A DNA stretch of 64,000 bases from contig NC_041004.1 in the NCBI RefSeq assembly GCF_004193775.1, forward strand, positions 38,774,411 through 38,838,410, given 5' to 3'. Positions within the stretch are counted from its first letter, which is position 1, and every line of letters starts with the position of its first letter. This document shows, one piece after another, positions 16,341 through 25,885 of the stretch. The DNA is from Glycine soja. Its lineage: Eukaryota; Streptophyta; Magnoliopsida; Fabales; Fabaceae. Position numbers and translations under genes: made by a program. The notes beneath the pieces were generated by a model. The model saw only the letters and a program-made list of their open reading frames with translations. It was not told the DNA's origin and searched no databases.

Positions 16341-16349
16341 GATTGAAAG
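16341..16349. repeat. Left 9-bp target-site duplication of the MULE
   Basis: GATTGAAAG directly abuts the left terminal inverted repeat and is identical to 25877-25885 at the right end. Nine base pairs is the usual Mutator-superfamily duplication. Confidence 0.95.
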
Positions 16350-16421
16350 GGGAGTTGCTACGTGCACCCAGCATTATTGCTGGGGCACCCAGCAAACAGT
16401 GAAGTGGCGAAACTGCCCTTC
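16350..16421 (+). repeat. Left terminal inverted repeat of the MULE
   Basis: About 72 bp. It aligns in inverse orientation with 25804-25876 through the blocks GGG, TGCTA, GTGCACCCAGCA, ATTGCTGG, GCACCCAGCAA, GAAACT and CCCTTC. It contains an imperfect inner palindrome centred near 16376. Confidence 0.92.
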
Positions 16422-16429
16422 AGCAATTA

Positions 16430-16640
16430 TTCTTCCGGAAGAAGGTTCTTCCGGAAAGTTTCCGGAAATAATTTTTCCGGAAAGTTTCCGGAAGAACCTT
16501 CTTCCGGAAGAATAATTTGTGTCTTCCGGAAAAACTCACAGACAATTTCCGGAAGAACGTCATCCGGAATGTTTCCGGAAGAAGCTTCTTCCGGAAGAAT
16601 TCCAGTGTCTTCCGGAAGAAGCTTCTTCCGGAAGTTATTT
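16430..16640. repeat. Subterminal TTCCGGAA palindrome array, left
   Basis: The 8-bp palindrome TTCCGGAA occurs 12 times, plus one near-match, in about 210 bp. Many copies are extended to CTTCTTCCGGAAGAAG, and they sit in both orientations, so neighbouring copies can pair. Open frames across this array are repeat artefacts. Confidence 0.95.
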
Positions 16641-16737
16641 TTTTTTTTAATGCGTATGTAATGACGATTTTGCCCTTGTGTAAATTTCTTTAAATTAACG
16701 TCTTCAGGCTGTGTTTTACTGCGCTTTCTTTCTTTCT

Positions 16738-16800
16738 TCTTCCGTTTGCTTTGTTTCGTCTTCCGTTTGCTTTGTTTCTTCTTCCGTTTGCTGTTGTTTC
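16738..16800 (+). repeat. Three short tandem copies of CTTCCGTTTGCTTTGTTTC
   Basis: A roughly 22-bp pyrimidine-rich unit is repeated three times in the leader between the left array and the transposase gene. It probably lies in the 5' untranslated region. Confidence 0.7.
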
Positions 16801-16976
16801 GGTGGTGGTCCCTTCAGCAGTCTGTTGGTGGTCCAGTGAAGTGAAGTATTTGAAGATTTGGTGGTCCCGTGTTCCGTATTTGAAGTTTTATTAGTGGCTG
16901 TTGTTCCTATTTTGTCAGAGGTACGCGTTTATTTCGTTTTCCGGTTAGCTTTTAGAGAAGAAAAACAGTAAAAAAT

Positions 16977-17232
16977 GTATCCGGAAGAAATTTTAGGCAC
17001 AGAAGGAGGAAGGTCCGGAATGACCACTTCCGGATGAAGGTCTTCCGGAAGTTACGAAAGCCAATTCCGGAAGAAGTGCTTCCGGAAATAACTATTTCCG
17101 GAAGACCTTCTTCCGGAATTGGGCTTCTTAACTTCCGGAAGAAGGTCTTCCGGAAGTTACGAAGCCCAATTCCGGAAGAAGTGCTTCCGGAATTGGCCTT
17201 CGTAACTTCCGGAAGAACTTCTTCCGGAATGT
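16977..17232. repeat. Second TTCCGGAA palindrome array, transposase leader
   Basis: Eleven exact TTCCGGAA copies and three near-matches lie in about 255 bp, spaced roughly 15-25 bp. They include a repeated module GGTCTTCCGGAAGTTACGAA. A plausible leader intron could run from a CAGAG|GTACGC donor near 16920 to an acceptor near 17640. That would remove this array from the mature message, but this is inference. Confidence 0.9.
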
Positions 17233-17713
17233 TAAATTATTACTAATTTATTAATTTCTGTTTTATAATTTTTTTAATTTCTGTTTTATATATATTTCTG
17301 TTAGTTAATAATGAATTATTGGTTTAATTAGGTATAATGATATATATTGTGGATTATAATTTTTTTTGTTTTATAATGGTATATATATTTCTGTTTTATA
17401 ATTTTTTTTTATTTCTGGTTTATATATGTTGTGGATTATTGATTTAATTAGGTATAATGGTATAATATTAAATGATTTAGGTAACTTAAATGTATAATGG
17501 TACAAAAATGTTTTATTAGTTGTTTATTATAGTGATAAGTTTAGTTTAAGTAAATAATGTAGTTATAAATTTAGAATATAGTGATAATTTTAATATAGTC
17601 GTGTATGATGCATATGTCCTATTAATATGTTTGTTATTTAAGGTGTAGTAAATTTTTGGATGTGGTTATATGATAATTTGAATGTACTTGTGTATGATGC
17701 ATATGTCCTTAAG

Positions 17714-20693
17714 ATGGACGAAGATCAATGGAGGTATGACTTTGCGATGTCACAAGAAGTTGATATGGATTATGATTATGATAATCAAGAAGAATGTGGA
17801 GTGAATGAACGACATGTCGATTGTTCAAATGCTTTTAATACATCTCAGGTAATCATAGATAATTTGAGTCATTGGTTGAATTGATGGTTTGTACGAAAAT
17901 TAATGTGTTAGGGTTGCGTTGTAGGTATTCGCTACTCGAGATGATGTTTTGCAATGGGCTCGAACAGTTGCCCATGAAAATGGATTTGTTGCAGTGATTA
18001 TGAGATCTGACACAGAGACCGGTAGCAGAGGAAGAAGTTCATTTGTGTTAATTGGGTGTGAAAGGAGTGGTACGTACAAGTGTAGAAATAAAGAATTCGT
18101 TAGAAAAGACACCGGGAGTAGGAAATGTGGTTGTCCCTTCAGGCTTCGTGGGAAACCAGTGCGTGGAGGGGAAGGTTGGATGGTGAAGTTGATCTGTGGG
18201 ATTCATAATCATGAATTGGCGAAGTCCTTAGTTGGACATCCATACGCCGGGCGATTGACTAAGGAAGAAAAGAAAATTATTGCTGATATGACAAAGTCGA
18301 TGGTGAAACCGAAAAACATCTTGCTAACGTTGAAGGAACACAATGCCGACAGTTACACCACGATAAAGCAAATTTACAATGCAAGAAGTGCATATCGTTC
18401 TTCAATAAGAGGAGCTGATACCGAAATGCAGCATCTGATGAAGCTTCTCGAACGTGATCAATACATTCATTGGCATAGATTGAAGGATGAAGTTGTGGTG
18501 CGTGATCTGTTTTGGTGTCACCCAGATGCAGTAAAGTTATGCAATGCATGTCATCTGGTGTTTTTTATAGACAGTACCTACAAAACAAACAGGTACAGAC
18601 TCCCACTACTTGACTTTGTTGGAGTGACACCAACGGCGATGACATTCTCTGCTGGGTTTGCATATCTGGAGGCTGAGCGTGTTAATAATATTGTATGGGC
18701 TTTGGAACGATTTCGAGGCCTATTTTTAAGACACGATCGCCTCCCTCTTGTTATTGTCACTGACAGAGACCTAGCACTGATGAATGCAGTGAAAACTGTG
18801 TTTCCCGAGTCTACTAATTTGTTGTGCAGGTTTCATATCGATAAGAATGTGAAGGCGAAGTGCAAATCTTTAATCGGGGAAAAAAATGCGTGGGACTATG
18901 TAATGGATAACTGGGGTACTTTGGTTGATTGTCCGTCCGAATACGAGTTCCATGAGTCATATCAGAAGTTTCAAGTTGCTTGTTCGCCTTGGCCGATGTT
19001 CGTTGACTATGTTAACGACACATGGATTATCCCCCACAAGGAAAAATTTATTACAGCATGGACGAATAAGGTCATGCACCTAGGCAACACAACAACAAAC
19101 AGGTATTAACAACTGATTTTATTTGTTAGTAACGATTAATATTAAATGGTATTTAATTGTTGTATATTTTCATGTTTGTTGTGTATTTTAAATGTAGGGT
19201 TGAATCAGCTCATTGGGCTCTCAAAAGAGTACTACAAAATAGCGTTGGAGACCTATGTAGTGTTTGGGATGCCATGAACAACATGATCACGCTGCAACAC
19301 GTCGAAATTAAAGCATCCTTTGAAACCAGTACGCATGTGGTTGGCCATGTATATAAAAAAACCTTATACAAGAGGCTTCTTGGGATGGTTTCGAGGGATG
19401 CTTTAAATCAGATTGCTTCTGAGATTGACCGTCTACGTTATCTCGGCAACAATCTCTCTTCTTGTGGTTGTGTGATGAGAAGCACGCACGGGCTTCCTTG
19501 TGCATGTGAGCTTTCTAGGTATACTGCTAGCAGCATCCCATTGGAGTCAGTCCATCTTTTTTGGAGGAGACTTTGCTTTTCAGACCAAGGGTTATGTGAG
19601 ACGGAAGTCACCATCAAGGAAGAAATAGAGGTCATATCTAAAAGGTTTGATGAACTTGATGTGGCTGGCAAAGTAAATCTGAAGAGTAAACTTCGAGAAA
19701 TCGCATACCCTGATCATAACTCTATGTGCCCTCCTCCATCAAAGGTGAACACTAAAGGTGCACCGAAGAAACCGATGAAAAGAAGTCAAACATCCACAAA
19801 GCGTGATCCGTCTTACTGGGAGTATGTTGATGCTTTTCATTCTGTTCAAAGCAGCAACTCTCCAGTGAAACGAAGTGCATCATGTTCTCAACCGCGTCAG
19901 CCAACAAGGATCATCCCGATGTTGGATCAATTTGCGTCATTCTTTCAAGGTTTCATTCGTGACGTTGTGGATGTGAAAGCGGACGGTAACTGTGGATATC
20001 GGTCCATTGGCGCTTTATTAGGTATGGGGGAAGATTCGTGGCCGTTAGTGCGTAATGAATTGCTTAAAGAACTTGGCAGGTGGTCGCATGAGTACATGAA
20101 CCTCTTCGGTGGCACAGAGAGATTTGAACAATTAAAGTTGTCCCTACTTGTTGATGGATTTTCAAAGGTATGTTTTTAGGTTAATTTTTTTTAATAACAA
20201 TGTTTAAATTACTTACATGTGTATGTTTGGTTCATTCAGGTTAGTGTGGACAAGTGGATGGATATAACAGACATGGGATATGTGATTGCTTCACGGTATA
20301 ACGTAATCCTTGTATCGTTGTCCCAACAACAAAGCATGACATTTTTCCCTCTTAGAAGTCAACCACCACCTGACTCTTCTGGCCACCGCATCATATGTGT
20401 CGGTCACGTGTTTGGAAATCATTTTGTTCAGGTACATTGAATATAGTTAGTGTAACAATTATGCAATGACTTCGCTTGTTCGTTTGGCACGGTCAGCGCA
20501 TGATATAATGTTTGTTCATGTACAACAGGTTTATTTGAAAGACCATTGTCCGTTGCCGCCCCCATCGCTGTTGTGGTCAACCAATTGTTATTCTCAGGCA
20601 AAGCAATGGGCAATTCCATATATTAGTAGAATGCAGGAATACACAAGCTTGATGTCATTCAAAACACACTATGTAGACCTAAATGAAGACTAA
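17714..20693 (+). CDS. MULE transposase fused to a C-terminal OTU cysteine-protease domain (5 exons)
   Basis: The gene is intact, 879 residues. Exons are 17714-17848, 17925-19102, 19198-20167, 20240-20431 and 20529-20693; all introns are GT-AG and phases agree. The start at 17714 (MDEDQW) has a good AAG-ATG-G context; an in-frame ATG at 17660 is the alternative. Domains in order: an acidic N-terminus; a FAR1/MuDR-type zinc-binding domain with C90, C98, C113, C115, H139, H141; an RNase-H-fold transposase core with candidate DDE residues D261 (FIDSTYKTNRYRLPLL), D325 (IVTDRDLALMNAV) and E440 (RVESAHWALKR); and a SWIM-like finger with C527, C529, C539, C541, ending CxC rather than the usual CxH. 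The OTU domain follows, with D696/D700, catalytic C703 in DGNCGYR and candidate H822 in NHFVQV. The OTU part would cleave ubiquitin or ubiquitin-like conjugates; its target is unknown. Confidence 0.93.
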
Positions 20694-22100
20694 ACATTCA
20701 TTGTTTATTTATTTGTATTCATTATGCGATATAATTCGTTGTAACCCGTCACTAACCAATTAATATTATCAACTACTCGTTTGGTTAAGCAAGGAAATTG
20801 TTGGTCCAACAAAAATCATTTACGCGTACAGCATACATCATTGTCATAATTGACAACACATAATGACATTCATAGTTTACCTGTAAGAAAATTGGCACGT
20901 AAATGGAAATGGTTCTTCATCTATTTCGTAGAAAGAGCTCCAACCCATAAGTGGCTGAGACTCCATGATCATGCTCCAGACACGAAGATATATAAAGACG
21001 TTGAAGTATTGAAGAAGGATTATAAGTCCCTTCCTTGCTGAAACAGTAGTAGAACGTGGGGAATATGAAAGGAAGTTGGCAATTTATATGAATACGAAAT
21101 AGGAATATACGATGATGAGAGTGAATCATATGTAACTTAAGGTGGCTATTAATTGCTTGGAGAATGTGCGCGCCGCCTTCTATGCGTGAATGCGTTTTAA
21201 TGGTGACGATGAGTATGCTTGCGAGAGTTACAAGAATACAAGGGGAATAAGAATATTCCAAGTTTGAACTTTAATGAACTCTCTTGCTTCTTTAATGAAT
21301 AGGTTTTGAAGATTGTGATCGTGGAGCTTCTGTGCATTTGGAAGATTTGATCTTTTTTAGGATCCTTTAATTAATCCGTTTATCACATTGTAAACAAGCA
21401 AGATGATTAGGTCTAATATGCTGTTATGTAGCCTATAATGGAACTGTGCATGCTAGCTCTGCTTGCTTTAGGCCAATCATGAATTCGGTTATTACAGTAA
21501 TTATTTACTTGAACATGGAAAAAGGGTTCATTTCCTATTTTTTTCGATTTTGAGGCTTTGTTTTGACGTGTTAGTTGACGGAACTGGGGAACGGGACTAT
21601 TTTTTTTGGATTCTTTGACGTCCAAACATGAGAAATGGCCGCCCTCCATTGTCTCAGGGCACAGGCACACCCACGCAAAAAATTCCCAAACATGGGTACT
21701 TGAACATGGAAAAAGGGTTCATTTCCTATTTTTTTCGATTTTGAGGCTTTGTTTTGACGTGTTAGTTGACGGAACTGGGGAACGGGACTATTTTTTTTGG
21801 ATTCTTTGACGTCCAAACATGAGAACTGGGGAACGGGACTATTTCCTGATTTATTAATTATTTTAAAAACTTTTATTTTTTATGTAATTCTTACAAACAA
21901 AACTCATGATTCTAGGTTCCTTTTTTTTAAAAATAAATTTAAAACAACCGTAAACTTCGCTTAAGGACCACAAACAATCGGAATAACAAACTATATTATA
22001 AAATAATAAACTGTGCAAAACACGCCAACTATATTAAACAAAAACTGTAATAATCACAAATATTCATGTCAACTACAACACAACAATATAAATACAATGA
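20694..22100. other. Spacer between the convergent MULE genes
   Basis: This is mainly the 3' flanks of the transposase (plus) and PMD gene (minus). It includes a tandem duplication at 21506-21824. Open frames in the duplicated part, and at 20850-21041, show no recognisable domain. Confidence 0.6.
21506..21824. repeat. Tandem duplication, 191-bp period
   Basis: Bases 21506-21633 recur at 21697-21824 with virtually no differences. A short third start of the unit (AACTGGGGAACGGGACTATTT) follows at about 21824. Near-identity implies a recent duplication. Confidence 0.88.
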
Positions 22101-24150
22101 TCAATGGTCCGTGCGGCGTCTCTGACGAGCCCTGACCGTCCCATCAGCACTGGGTCCCCCTCTCGCGATCGTCAGGCAGTCCTGCATAATGTCATATAAC
22201 TCTGTGCCTGCAGTGACTATCCTAAGGTTGAGCACACGCTCCAACCTCTGTGCAATCGCCTCATATCCCTCGTAATCATCCTGTCAAAGTCAGTAAAAAC
22301 ATTTATTATGAAATTCAAAATAAACAACAACTCATAAAACATTAAACGCGCAAATAATCTTACCACATATGGAGGGGGGTCAAATGCCACTGGAACCTGG
22401 GGGCTGGGCGGCTGTATGTAGTCCTCAGGGTCTGCAGCTGGTGCATCCCTCTGCTGGTCAGCTGCCTGGGTCGGTGTCATGAAAGGGTGAGATATGCGGA
22501 AAAATCACTCAATGTAATCCGCAGATACCTGCCCAGGCACTAAACAAGGCTGACCCGCAGGTAGTAAGTGATCCGCAAACTCCATCCACCTGTCATCTAT
22601 CTGCTCCTGTGACAATCGTGCACTAACAGGCGGCGGAGGGATGCTCTGGATGTAACCGAACTGGCGTACCACCCTCTCCGGTCGAACTGCGACGATCATA
22701 GGACCCCATCTGAGCTGACCCTGGAACGATGAAATCTCCTGAAACGCCCTAACACCCCGATGCTCCGTGTACGGCAACCAGGACACATCTGTGACGGTCA
22801 AACCATCACAACGTGCCCTGTAGGGTGCTCCTGTGATGCCCTTCATGTGCGCCTTCGACGTCAACCACCGGGAAGCACGTGGGGACGTCTCCTGGTATGT
22901 GTCGTCAGTCACGCACTGATGCACACTAGGGAAGTGCTCATAGATCCAGCACTACACAATAATTGAGGTTAACATAACATAAAAACATGTTTAAATCATA
23001 ATCGAACCTAACATATTAATAAACACAAAATTTACCTGAAATAGCGTCAAGTACCCCGCAAGCTGTCTGGTGGTGGTCCTACAAGCCTCATCTAACTGGT
23101 CGTACATATGAACCAGCGCGGCAACCCCCCAAGCGTAACCACCACTATGAGCGAGGTCCCGGAAAGCGTCAAGGTGGACCACATGCACGTATGTTGCACT
23201 CTTATTAGCAAAAAGAGTGCAACCGACAAGGTGCAGCAAATAAGCGCGAGCTGCGACAATCCACCGCCGGGCCTGACATCTGGTCTCATAAATGTCACGA
23301 ACCCATCCTAATCGTACATATGCTCCACGTGTGAGCGCTGTCTCGGCTCTGGCCTCCTCCGCAGACACTTCCAGCAACTCCGTGAGCAAGAATCTGGCCT
23401 CCTCCGTAGAAAGAGCGTGGAAACTGTGCAAGGCGCCAGTGATGGGCAAATGTAGAATGGACGACACATCATCCAATGTGATCGTCAGCTCTCCTACTGG
23501 AAGGTGGAAGGTGCTAGTCTCACTGTGCCACCTCTCCACAAATGCGGATATAAGTCCAGGATCGCCAGTAATAACTGAACAATCTATCAGTGGACTTAAT
23601 CCTGTGGCAGCCACCAGGCCTTCAATCTCAGGCACTAGCCTCCCAATCAGTGTCAGCTTCCTCCCATGTGACACTAACTTCAAATCAGGACGTTCCTGAT
23701 TTGAAGTACAAATTATACAATTATTAAAAAAAAATTAATCATAAACAAATAAATAAACAATGACAAATAATTAACAAATTAAAATACCTGTCCACTCCAC
23801 ACGGCATGTGCAACATGCTCGGCAAATGATGTGAGCACTGACGGGTCACGTGGACCACCAGGGAATTCCTCTGCAGCATCATCACCATCTGACCCCTCAC
23901 CACTATCAGCACCCTGTGCGTCCGCACGCATCTCAGGTGCCTCCGTAGGCTGCTCAGGGACATCATCAGTCATGTCAGCGACGTCCTCAGCCATATCACG
24001 TCCCTCCGTAGTCATCTGATGAACGCGTAGCCTACGGGCTGAGGCAGTAGGCCTACGCCTCTCGGGAACATCGCCAGCATCCTCGTCAGCAGCTCTATCT
24101 CTGCCTACAAATCTACCTATGGCACGACCTAAACCTCGTGTTCTGGCCAT
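22101..24150 (-). pseudogene. Plant mobile domain (MAIN-like) gene with one internal stop (4 exons)
   Basis: The exons are 24150-23788, 23695-23036, 22951-22364 and 22280-22101. They join in phase 0 throughout, for 596 codons plus stop. The N-terminus (about residues 1-120) is an acidic, low-complexity Asp/Glu/Ala/Pro-rich tail. The plant mobile domain (aminotransferase-like PMD, as in MAIN/MAIL1) spans roughly residues 125-480, with family features GLSPLIDCS, VGELTITLDDVSSILHLPI, AYLLHLVGCTLF and GGYAWGVAALVHMYDQL. Codon 490 is TGA at 22507-22505, in the context DYIE*FFRISHPF where the family has Trp. The frame is open again afterwards to a normal C-terminus. So this is a single TGG-to-TGA change, and the stopped product would be 489 residues containing most of the PMD. 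MAIN-type PMD proteins act in the nucleus in gene regulation and TE silencing. TE-borne PMDs are known, but this protein's role is unknown. Confidence 0.88.
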
Positions 24151-24289
24151 GATCTGTAAATCATGTCGAACACGTTTTTTTTTCGGTCAAAATATACACA
24201 ATTTTCTTTATAAAAAATCAACTTTATTTATAAACAAATAAGACTAACTTAAATCAAATCATTTTCACACATACACGACCTAATTTTAA

Positions 24290-24790
24290 AAAAAAAATTA
24301 AACAACTTCATTTATATAAAAAAAACAACTAATGTAAAATAAAATTATTAATAAACATGCACAACTTAATTTTTTAAAAAAAAATTTAAACAACTTCATT
24401 TATATAAAAAAAAACAACTAATGTAAAATAAAATTATTAATAAACATGCACAACTTAATTTTTTTTAAAAAAAATTAAACAACTTCATTTATAAAAAAAA
24501 AAAACACAACTAATATAAAAAAAATTAATTAGTAAACATCCACAACTTAATTTTTAAAAAAAAATAAACAACTTCATTTATAAAAAAAAACACAACTAAA
24601 TTACTTAGTAAACATCAACAAGTTAATTTTTTTTAAAAAAAATAAACAACTTCATTTATAAAAACAAAACACAACTAATATAAAAATAATTCATTACTAA
24701 ACATCCACAACTTAATTTTTAAAAAAAATTAAACAACTAATGTAAAAAAAAAATTATTTAGTAAACATCCACAATTTTTTTAGTAAATAA
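24290..24790. repeat. AT-rich minisatellite, ~78-89 bp period
   Basis: The word AACAACTTCATTTATA recurs at about 24301, 24389, 24478, 24567 and 24645, each followed by an ACAACTAAT / TAATAAACAT / CACAACTTAATTTT series. Later copies are shorter and decayed. Similar AT-rich words continue to about 25160 without a clear period. This lies in the upstream region of the PMD gene. Confidence 0.8.
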
Positions 24791-25164
24791 AATACTTCAT
24801 TTATAATAAAATAAACTAATTAATTATAAAAAATTAGTATTTTTATAAAACTTCCAAAACACACAACTTTAATTATAAAAATAGCCAACTTCATTTTTAA
24901 AGAAAAAACACTAATTTAAAAAAAAACAATAAACAAAAACAAACACAACTACTTTTATAAAAAAAAATTAATTTACAAATTAATATTTAGTAAAAATACA
25001 CAATTTAAATTATAAAAAAAATATGACATCAAAAACCCAAACTTCATTTTTCATAAAATCTAAAAAACAAAATAACCAAAATAAATAAAATAATTCATTT
25101 AAAAAAAAACAAAACAATTTCTGTTTAAAAAAAATTTAAAAAAAAAACACAAAAAAAAAAACCC

Positions 25165-25455
25165 ACTTCCGGAAGAAGTGGTTCTTCCGGAAACACTCCG
25201 GAAGAAGGGTTCTTCCGGAAAGGTCTTCCGGAAGTTTGAAACTTCTTCCGGAAGTGGGCGTCTTCCGGAATTCTTCCGGATGAACCACTTCTTCCGGAAA
25301 GTTCCCGGAAGACGTTTTCCGGAAGTCTTCCGGAAGAAGTGTTCTTCCGGAAGACGTTTGGTTACTTCCGGAAGAACACTTCTTCCGGAAACTTTCCGGA
25401 AAACGTTCTTCCGGAACTTCCGGAAGAACCCCTAACGGGTCTTCCGGAAGACTCC
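25165..25455. repeat. Subterminal TTCCGGAA palindrome array, right
   Basis: Sixteen exact TTCCGGAA copies and at least three near-matches lie in about 290 bp, mirroring the left arrays. It sits about 420 bp inside the right end and upstream of the PMD gene's start. Confidence 0.94.
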
Positions 25456-25803
25456 GTCGTCAGCCATTTCCCCATTTTTTCCGGCGTCTCCTGCTCTCGT
25501 CTTCTACCCTACGGTTCCGCTAACCTAAGGTTCTTCTAACCTACCCTAAATGCTACAACTACAGTGCATAATAAAAGCAAAGGGAAGATTAGGGACACCT
25601 ACCTCGAACGGAAATGGCGTCCAACCGAAGCAGCAGCTGGGCTCGCGGTGAAGGAGAAGGCTCGCGGAAGAGGTATGCAAAGGAAGAACGAGAAGGCTCG
25701 CGGAAGAAGGCTCGCGGAAGGAAGAAAAGCAGAAGCAAGAAGAAGGCTTAGTGATTCCGAGAGAGGAGAAGAAAACTATTTCAATATTTTAAACTTTTTT
25801 AAT
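25456..25803. other. MULE right leader region
   Basis: This includes about three GAAGGCTCGCGGAAG direct repeats at about 25655-25720. The open frame at 25564-25812 is Arg/Lys-rich translation of these repeats and lies antisense to the likely PMD-gene leader. I do not support it as a gene. Confidence 0.5.
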
Positions 25804-25876
25804 GAAGGGTAAAATGGTAGTTTCAATAAATTGCTGGGTGCACCAGCAATATTGCTGGGTGCACCTAGCATATCCC
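25804..25876 (-). repeat. Right terminal inverted repeat of the MULE
   Basis: It is the inverse partner of 16350-16421. It contains a near-perfect 29-nt palindrome at 25837-25865 centred on AATATT, so the TIR tip can itself form a hairpin. Confidence 0.92.
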
Positions 25877-25885
25877 GATTGAAAG
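25877..25885. repeat. Right 9-bp target-site duplication of the MULE
   Basis: GATTGAAAG, identical to 16341-16349. Confidence 0.95.

Follow-up and report, generated by a model that had tools for sequence, protein, structure and literature searches.

The window analyzed here is a stretch of 64,000 nucleotides from the wild soybean Glycine soja (contig NC_041004.1, positions 38,774,411 to 38,838,410), and a Mutator-like element (MULE) of 9,527 bp with two genes occupies its positions 16350-25876. One gene encodes a transposase with an OTU-like C-terminal domain, and the other, facing it, encodes a protein with a plant mobile domain (PMD). We found that the transposase and the convergent PMD gene travel together and that the PMD gene is under purifying selection in the transposing lineages.

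An initial annotation of the window had placed a two-gene MULE with a convergent MAIN-like PMD gene at this position, and both parts of that proposal were borne out. As shown in Table 1, the element displays the two features by which MULEs are recognized, 9-bp target-site duplications (TSDs) and terminal inverted repeats (TIRs). The TIRs belong to the inverted-repeat pair I6, whose arms (16343-16395 and 25831-25883; 53 nt each, 85% complementary) include TSD bases. When compared with Pfam, the open transposase scored 76 bits with the MULE domain PF10551 (E 3.3e-21; cut-off 27.6), and at its N-terminus PF08731 (AFT) scored above the cut-off and PF03101 (FAR1; E 0.0025) below it. The PMD protein matched PF10536 with an E of 2.6e-55 (188.4 bits against a cut-off of 34.9). 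Because a nonsense codon cuts the 596-residue PMD frame at residue 490, the window copy is probably not PMD-competent.

Table 1. Features of the element and their positions in the window
Feature	Position	Strand	Description
Left TSD	16341..16349		9-bp GATTGAAAG; identical 9-mer flanks both element sides
Left TIR	16350..16395		Imperfect; from inverted-repeat pair I6
Left subterminal array A	16433..16633		12 copies of TTCCGGAA
Left subterminal array B, upstream of transposase gene	17043..17229		11 copies of TTCCGGAA
Transposase gene	17714..20693	+	5 exons, 879 aa, no internal stop, GT/AG borders; hand-built model
Transposase exons	17714-17848, 17925-19102, 19198-20167, 20240-20431, 20529-20693	+	Spliced translation
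OTU-like domain	19919..20690	+	Parts of exons 3-5; C-terminus of transposase
PMD gene (MAIN-like)	22101..24150	-	4 exons, convergent to transposase; hand-built model
PMD exons	24150-23788, 23695-23036, 22951-22364, 22280-22101	-	Nonsense codon at residue 490/596
Right subterminal array, upstream of PMD gene	25167..25449		16 copies of TTCCGGAA
Right TIR	25831..25876		Imperfect; from inverted-repeat pair I6
Right TSD	25877..25885		9-bp GATTGAAAG

Copies of the element and the pairing of its genes

The Glycine soja assembly (1.01 Gb, 1,119 contigs) was searched for copies. A match of 100% identity to the first 75 bp of the element occurred in at least 40 places, the window's own included, and one of 97% in a further place. 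Twenty of the 39 non-window places carrying these 75 bp were fetched, and all 20 aligned to the element. Perfect 9-bp TSDs were detected in 12 of them, each with a different sequence; no exact TSD was found in the other eight, several of which extend beyond the fetched stretch. Two copies, L013 and L017, are deletion derivatives of about 2.8 kb, which lost both genes (only transposase exon 1 is left in L017) and retain the TIRs, the subterminal arrays and perfect TSDs. The nonsense codon of the window PMD recurred in one of the 20 copies, L022 (the site is not covered in all 20), and both coding frames were open in four (coding frames only; one or two exon-end bases were unaligned in two of these four).

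The transposase core of 394 aa gave 105 scored matches of 3,271 candidates genome-wide, with 97-100% identity, and 16 copies including the window shared an identical core. The median nearest-neighbour divergence of the transposase coding sequence was 0.25% (16 rows). These two results point to a recent burst, and the element belongs to a young MULE family of wild soybean that has two genes and is present in many copies. Two family copies, L025 and L026 (G000:C10:10115660-10132009), lie at most about 16 kb apart and face each other. Between the 3' ends of both genes a repeat block was noticed at 21506..21829, and blastn gave overlapping matching blocks for it whose number varies by copy (L009, L016, L019, L022, L024, and L027).

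The presence of the PMD gene in other copies, which the initial annotation had named as the check on its claim, was confirmed. A convergent PMD match within 12 kb accompanied 92 of the 105 scored transposase copies, with a median gap of 4.7 kb, and when the PMD positions were shuffled 200 times the chance pairing was 0.24 on average and 2 at the maximum. Moreover, PMD coding sequence was present in 17 of the 20 fetched TIR copies, and 14 of the 15 copies with a full-length transposase exon 2 also had the PMD. The pairing is thus no accident of the window copy.

To place the PMD among its relatives, a PF10536 profile search of the genome was made, which gave 185 matches from 117 scored candidates. 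The other PF10536 matches fell into groups with equal scores, which is what near-identical repeats would give. Thirteen PF10536 places and the longer locus L029 were taken as the comparison sample; L032 was dropped, for it gave no tblastn match. Over about 200 aa, the window PMD was 37% identical to the C8/C18 pair (L033 and L034), 34-35% to L035 and L036, and 30-34% to seven repeat-like PMDs, and L030 and L031 reached 40% across about 60 aa only. The window PMD and its Glycine relatives formed a group of their own in the tree (support 91/100). Since the tree carried a long-branch warning, we conclude only that the window PMD is not a fresh copy of any PMD gene sampled. The Glycine protein records held diverged PMD relatives at 58-73% identity. 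L029 was considered as a second MULE family and rejected, with no transposase relative and no TTCCGGAA within its 9 kb; its tail resembles, as we take it, the PMD of Gypsy elements, and it was used solely as an outgroup.

Selection on the two genes

The PMD exon 2 gave 150 scored matches of 3,618 candidates genome-wide, at 95-100% identity. Its selection was analyzed on 57 rows, 17 from the long loci and the window and 40 added from these 150 matches. On the internal branches, 11 nonsynonymous and 34 synonymous changes were counted, distributed over 32 internal branches, and the dN/dS was 0.11-0.16 (kappa 1-7). On the terminal branches, the counts were 168 and 97, and the dN/dS was 0.61-0.85 over the same range of kappa. 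The contrast between the two was significant (Fisher p 1.2e-6), and it was also visible in the codon positions 1/2/3, which took 11/5/29 changes on internal and 88/77/101 on terminal branches. As a control, the alignment was read in the five other frames; two of them showed no contrast (p 0.38 and 0.36) and two showed a reversed one (p 0.0085 and 0.041). The PMD is thus close to neutral after insertion, and the pattern is that of a gene needed during element movement and decaying afterwards.

Several observations weigh against this reading of the pairing and of the selection. Among the matches listed, 13 of the 105 transposase copies had no PMD in reach, perhaps through deletion or because a match was missed. 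The 40 added PMD rows were hand-chosen for a spread of identity and are all stop-free, and the remaining frame, an antisense one, gave a weaker contrast in the same direction (p 0.0024). When shared variants were compared with singletons over the 20 long loci and the window (20 transposase rows and, without L025, 17 PMD rows), the pN/pS was 0.33 against 0.61 for the PMD and 0.42 against 0.66 for the transposase, and neither contrast was significant (p 0.13 and 0.38, respectively). The larger sample of 57 rows was drawn in response to this p of 0.13. For the OTU-like region (34 rows; L098 was left out as too gapped), the nonsynonymous/synonymous counts were 8/5 on internal and 54/18 on terminal branches (p 0.33), and those for the transposase exon 2 (16 rows) were 7/5 and 36/19 (p 0.74), with few internal changes in both. 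Furthermore, nonsense changes in the OTU-like part fell once on an internal branch and four times on tips. Lastly, the selection tells that the PMD mattered and says nothing on what it did.

A p of 0.03 for the shared PMD variants had been obtained with L025 included and was dropped, since L025 overlaps L026 and one PMD copy was counted twice. The test suggested in the initial annotation, purifying selection on both genes, came out positive for the PMD; the transposase core and the OTU-like part gave no significant contrast on their few internal changes.

The OTU-like domain and the subterminal arrays

The C-terminus of the transposase had initially been described as a complete-looking OTU cysteine-protease domain. 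The motifs were present in the last 220 residues, where DGNC (C703) and GNHFV (H822) follow each other in the OTU-type order, 119 residues apart. In the alignment of the OTU-like region, C703 was conserved in 34 of 34 rows and H822 in 33 of 34. Relatives of the domain were found in Glycine, Phaseolus vulgaris, Vigna unguiculata, and Sesbania, the diverged ones among the Glycine protein records being about 59-75% identical in this part. However, the Pfam scores stayed below the cut-off, and both AlphaFold models were poor (mean pLDDT 38.6 and 55.8). The label "OTU-like" is fair on the motifs, which do not establish a "complete OTU".

These results were also weighed for the alternative that the domain is degenerate or unrelated, with a DGNC motif met by chance and no OTU protease. 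The conservation of the motif argues against it, since the cysteine of DGNC was present in 97 of the 120 homologues listed; the histidine was present in nearly all of the 40 commonest contexts among these homologues. Many OTUs carry D or N two residues after the catalytic histidine, and the V at this place in the domain favors the alternative, as does the nonsense change on an internal branch. The Pfam comparison can be read both ways. The whole transposase matched no OTU-type model at E<=1, and the trimmed domain reached Peptidase_C65 only below the cut-off (E 0.27). When 91 domain sequences were compared, the sub-threshold matches included Peptidase_C65 (17 members, best 0.037), OTU (2), and Peptidase_C33 (1), presumably all OTU-related models, within a list of 24 families that holds unrelated families as well. 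Similarly, the PDB sequence search with the domain gave no match below E 0.4, but the best phmmer match, non-significant at E 0.84, lay exactly over the DGNC stretch and came from a structure entered as RNA-dependent RNA polymerase; we take it to be a viral OTU. A fold search with the low-confidence models gave no significant match, as the alternative would have it. Considering all these points, this alternative is unlikely, and deubiquitinase-type protease activity of the domain is possible but doubtful.

The noncoding ends of the element carry arrays of a short motif, which is a new observation of this study. The TTCCGGAA motif occurred 39 times in the element, where 0.2 occurrences were expected, and was absent from the rest of the 64-kb window; the consensus of the arrays is the palindrome TCTTCCGGAAGA. 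In the 12 delimited copies, 493 TTCCGGAA were counted in 86,379 bp, and their flanks, 30,494 bp in all, had none. All 20 fetched copies had TTCCGGAA arrays, the gene-less L013 and L017 included, and the number and spacing varied by copy. Because these two derivatives retain the arrays along with both ends and perfect TSDs, the arrays are probably cis-acting equipment, which may be transposase sites, sites recognized by a protein of the element as is the case in VANDAL21, or both.

We consider it rather probable that the TCTTCCGGAAGA arrays have no role in element expression, being mere subterminal repeats to which the transposase binds, or else satellite-like repeats that have drifted. Subterminal repeats bound by the transposase are common in plant DNA transposons, and the retention of the arrays in gene-less derivatives that moved is in line with such a role. 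Nevertheless, array B lies at the transposase-gene side, about 0.7-0.9 kb into the element, and the layout of the arrays is like that of the VANC targets (PMC5735166), which speaks for a role beyond binding of the transposase.

Function of the element PMD and comparison with known systems

The two-gene element has almost certainly been kept by selection. Since the PMD is under purifying selection in transposing lineages, we infer that its protein serves the element's own spread, and the PMD is probably part of the element's survival in the host. The host MAIN and MAIL1 proteins, with their partner PP7L, function in the silencing of transposable elements (TEs) (PMC7156037, PMC5418596). In the reading that we prefer, the element PMD would act on the host MAIN/MAIL1-PP7L module as a decoy or as a variant partner and would lower the silencing at element copies, thereby acting on element expression. 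The transposase, aided by the OTU-like protease domain, would bind the TIRs and the TCTTCCGGAAGA arrays and would move autonomous and deleted copies alike. Counter-silencing would be a sensible reading of the data. That the PMD acts on expression or silencing and not in the cut-and-paste reaction has about an even chance in our judgment, and the combination with the transposase part is slightly more tentative.

A more specific form, in which the PMD, perhaps with the OTU-like tail, would be directed to the TCTTCCGGAAGA arrays upstream of both genes and would relieve the host silencing there, appears rather improbable. If it were true, the silencing relieved would be MAIN/MAIL1-PP7L-dependent or methylation-based, and the family would have a second, independent answer to the problem solved by VANC in VANDAL elements, a counter-silencing kit of a MULE built from a silencing-type protein.

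One alternative is that the PMD is a transposition accessory, the role supposed for mudrB in maize MuDR, which would take part in integration or in complex assembly with the transposase and have no link to silencing. The layout is MuDR-like, with two genes, and the second gene of MuDR is apparently required for integration (PMC6446971). The selection on the PMD fits such an accessory equally well. Deletion derivatives without the PMD have spread, which would argue against an accessory, although supply in trans explains that. The PMD proteins studied so far work in gene expression and silencing (PMC7156037), and we regard the accessory role as unlikely but worth serious consideration.

It is more improbable that the PMD was selected for the copy number or tissue timing of the element, for instance by repressing its own family, and not for countering the host. 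Self-regulation is compatible with the selection result and with the requirement of MAIN, MAIL1, and PP7L for TE silencing and for some gene expression (PMC7156037), but self-repression would be a less expected benefit in a recently bursting family. As for a neutral passenger captured from a host gene, whose pairing with the transposase would reflect descent from one founder copy, the frequent capture of host gene fragments by MULEs (PMC6431247) and the youth of the family could account for the co-occurrence, but the internal-branch dN/dS with its codon-position and frame control led us to reject it as highly improbable. Moreover, over exon 2 the identity of the PMD to the sampled host-like pairs is just 37% and 34-35%, and Glycine holds diverged relatives that are its own.

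Soybean allows a direct test of the counter-silencing question, since the family is recent and offers many copies, some with both frames open, its gene-less derivatives can serve as internal controls, and the selection on the PMD is clear. In the sources consulted, a use of PMD proteins by transposons to counter host silencing figures as speculation only. Ikeda et al. 2017 offered it for two captures of PMD-C by MULEs (PMC5418596), and a 2021 review repeated it (PMC8616336); the anti-silencing idea of the initial annotation is therefore not new.

The family also matters for annotation. In public records, Glycine proteins that belong to this family go under host-gene names, "MAIN-LIKE 1" and "FAR1-RELATED SEQUENCE", and two clusters of its Glycine protein records represent 222 and 322 sequences. 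Eudicots are said to contain mainly genic PMD-C (PMC7156037). Among the Glycine records P0001-P0240, element proteins were also named PKS-NRPS hybrid synthetase, and some records appear fused with neighbouring host genes (for example P0126, named protein phosphatase 2C, and P0177, named aquaporin).

With maize MuDR (mudrA/mudrB), the element shares the presence of two genes in one MULE, and the gene order of MuDR is reportedly convergent as well. The description of its mudrB (PMC6446971) is that of a protein whose function is unknown, and not that of a PMD protein. A PMD antisense to the transposase has been tabulated for the plant MULE groups 42 and 47-50 (Dupeyron et al. 2019, PMC6446971); Table 1 of that source gives MULE-Solanaceae_1, MULE-Monocots, MDR, MUDRAVI2, and MUDR. 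These groups share with the window element a transposase, an antisense PMD, and the 9-bp TSD, and the MUDR group has soybean as one of its hosts. In the table rows, SWIM/CCHC fingers and no OTU domain are listed for the antisense-PMD groups, and FAR1 is listed for groups 35 and 36, whose rows have no PMD entry (PMC6446971). Unlike the antisense-PMD groups, as far as the table describes them, the window element combines a FAR1/AFT-like N-terminus, an OTU-like C-terminus, and the PMD. The FAR1-type MULEs are the Jittery/Hop groups of PMC6446971, and the FAR1 match of the window transposase lies below the cut-off.

The MULE-PMD of Ikeda et al. 2017 likewise carries a PMD, but in those elements, which come from grasses and Amborella, the transposase is fused with PMD-C (PMC5418596), whereas the legume element has its PMD as a gene of its own, convergent to that of the transposase. 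A cysteine-protease domain on or beside the transposase is shared with Ginger1, whose transposases have OTU or Ulp1 tails, with the ULP1 MULEs cited in the same source (PMC2836005), and with the hydra MuDR-6_HM, for which a table row gives "Ovarian Tumour Gene" (PMC6446971). The descriptions of these elements in the two sources mention no PMD partner. In the open-licence full texts searched, no element with an OTU-like tail and a convergent PMD turned up. The combination is thus an anatomy not met in the literature searched, as the initial annotation had supposed; the convergent PMD itself was known.

PMD and/or DUF are noted for half of the VANDAL members in the table of PMC6446971. The two gene products of the window element matched only MULE/FAR1-type and PMD models above the Pfam cut-off, and they were not compared directly with VANC sequences. 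For VANC, binding and demethylation have been demonstrated (PMC5735166). What the element has in common with VANDAL21 and its VANC21 is an extra gene together with variable arrays of a short motif in the noncoding parts (PMC5735166).

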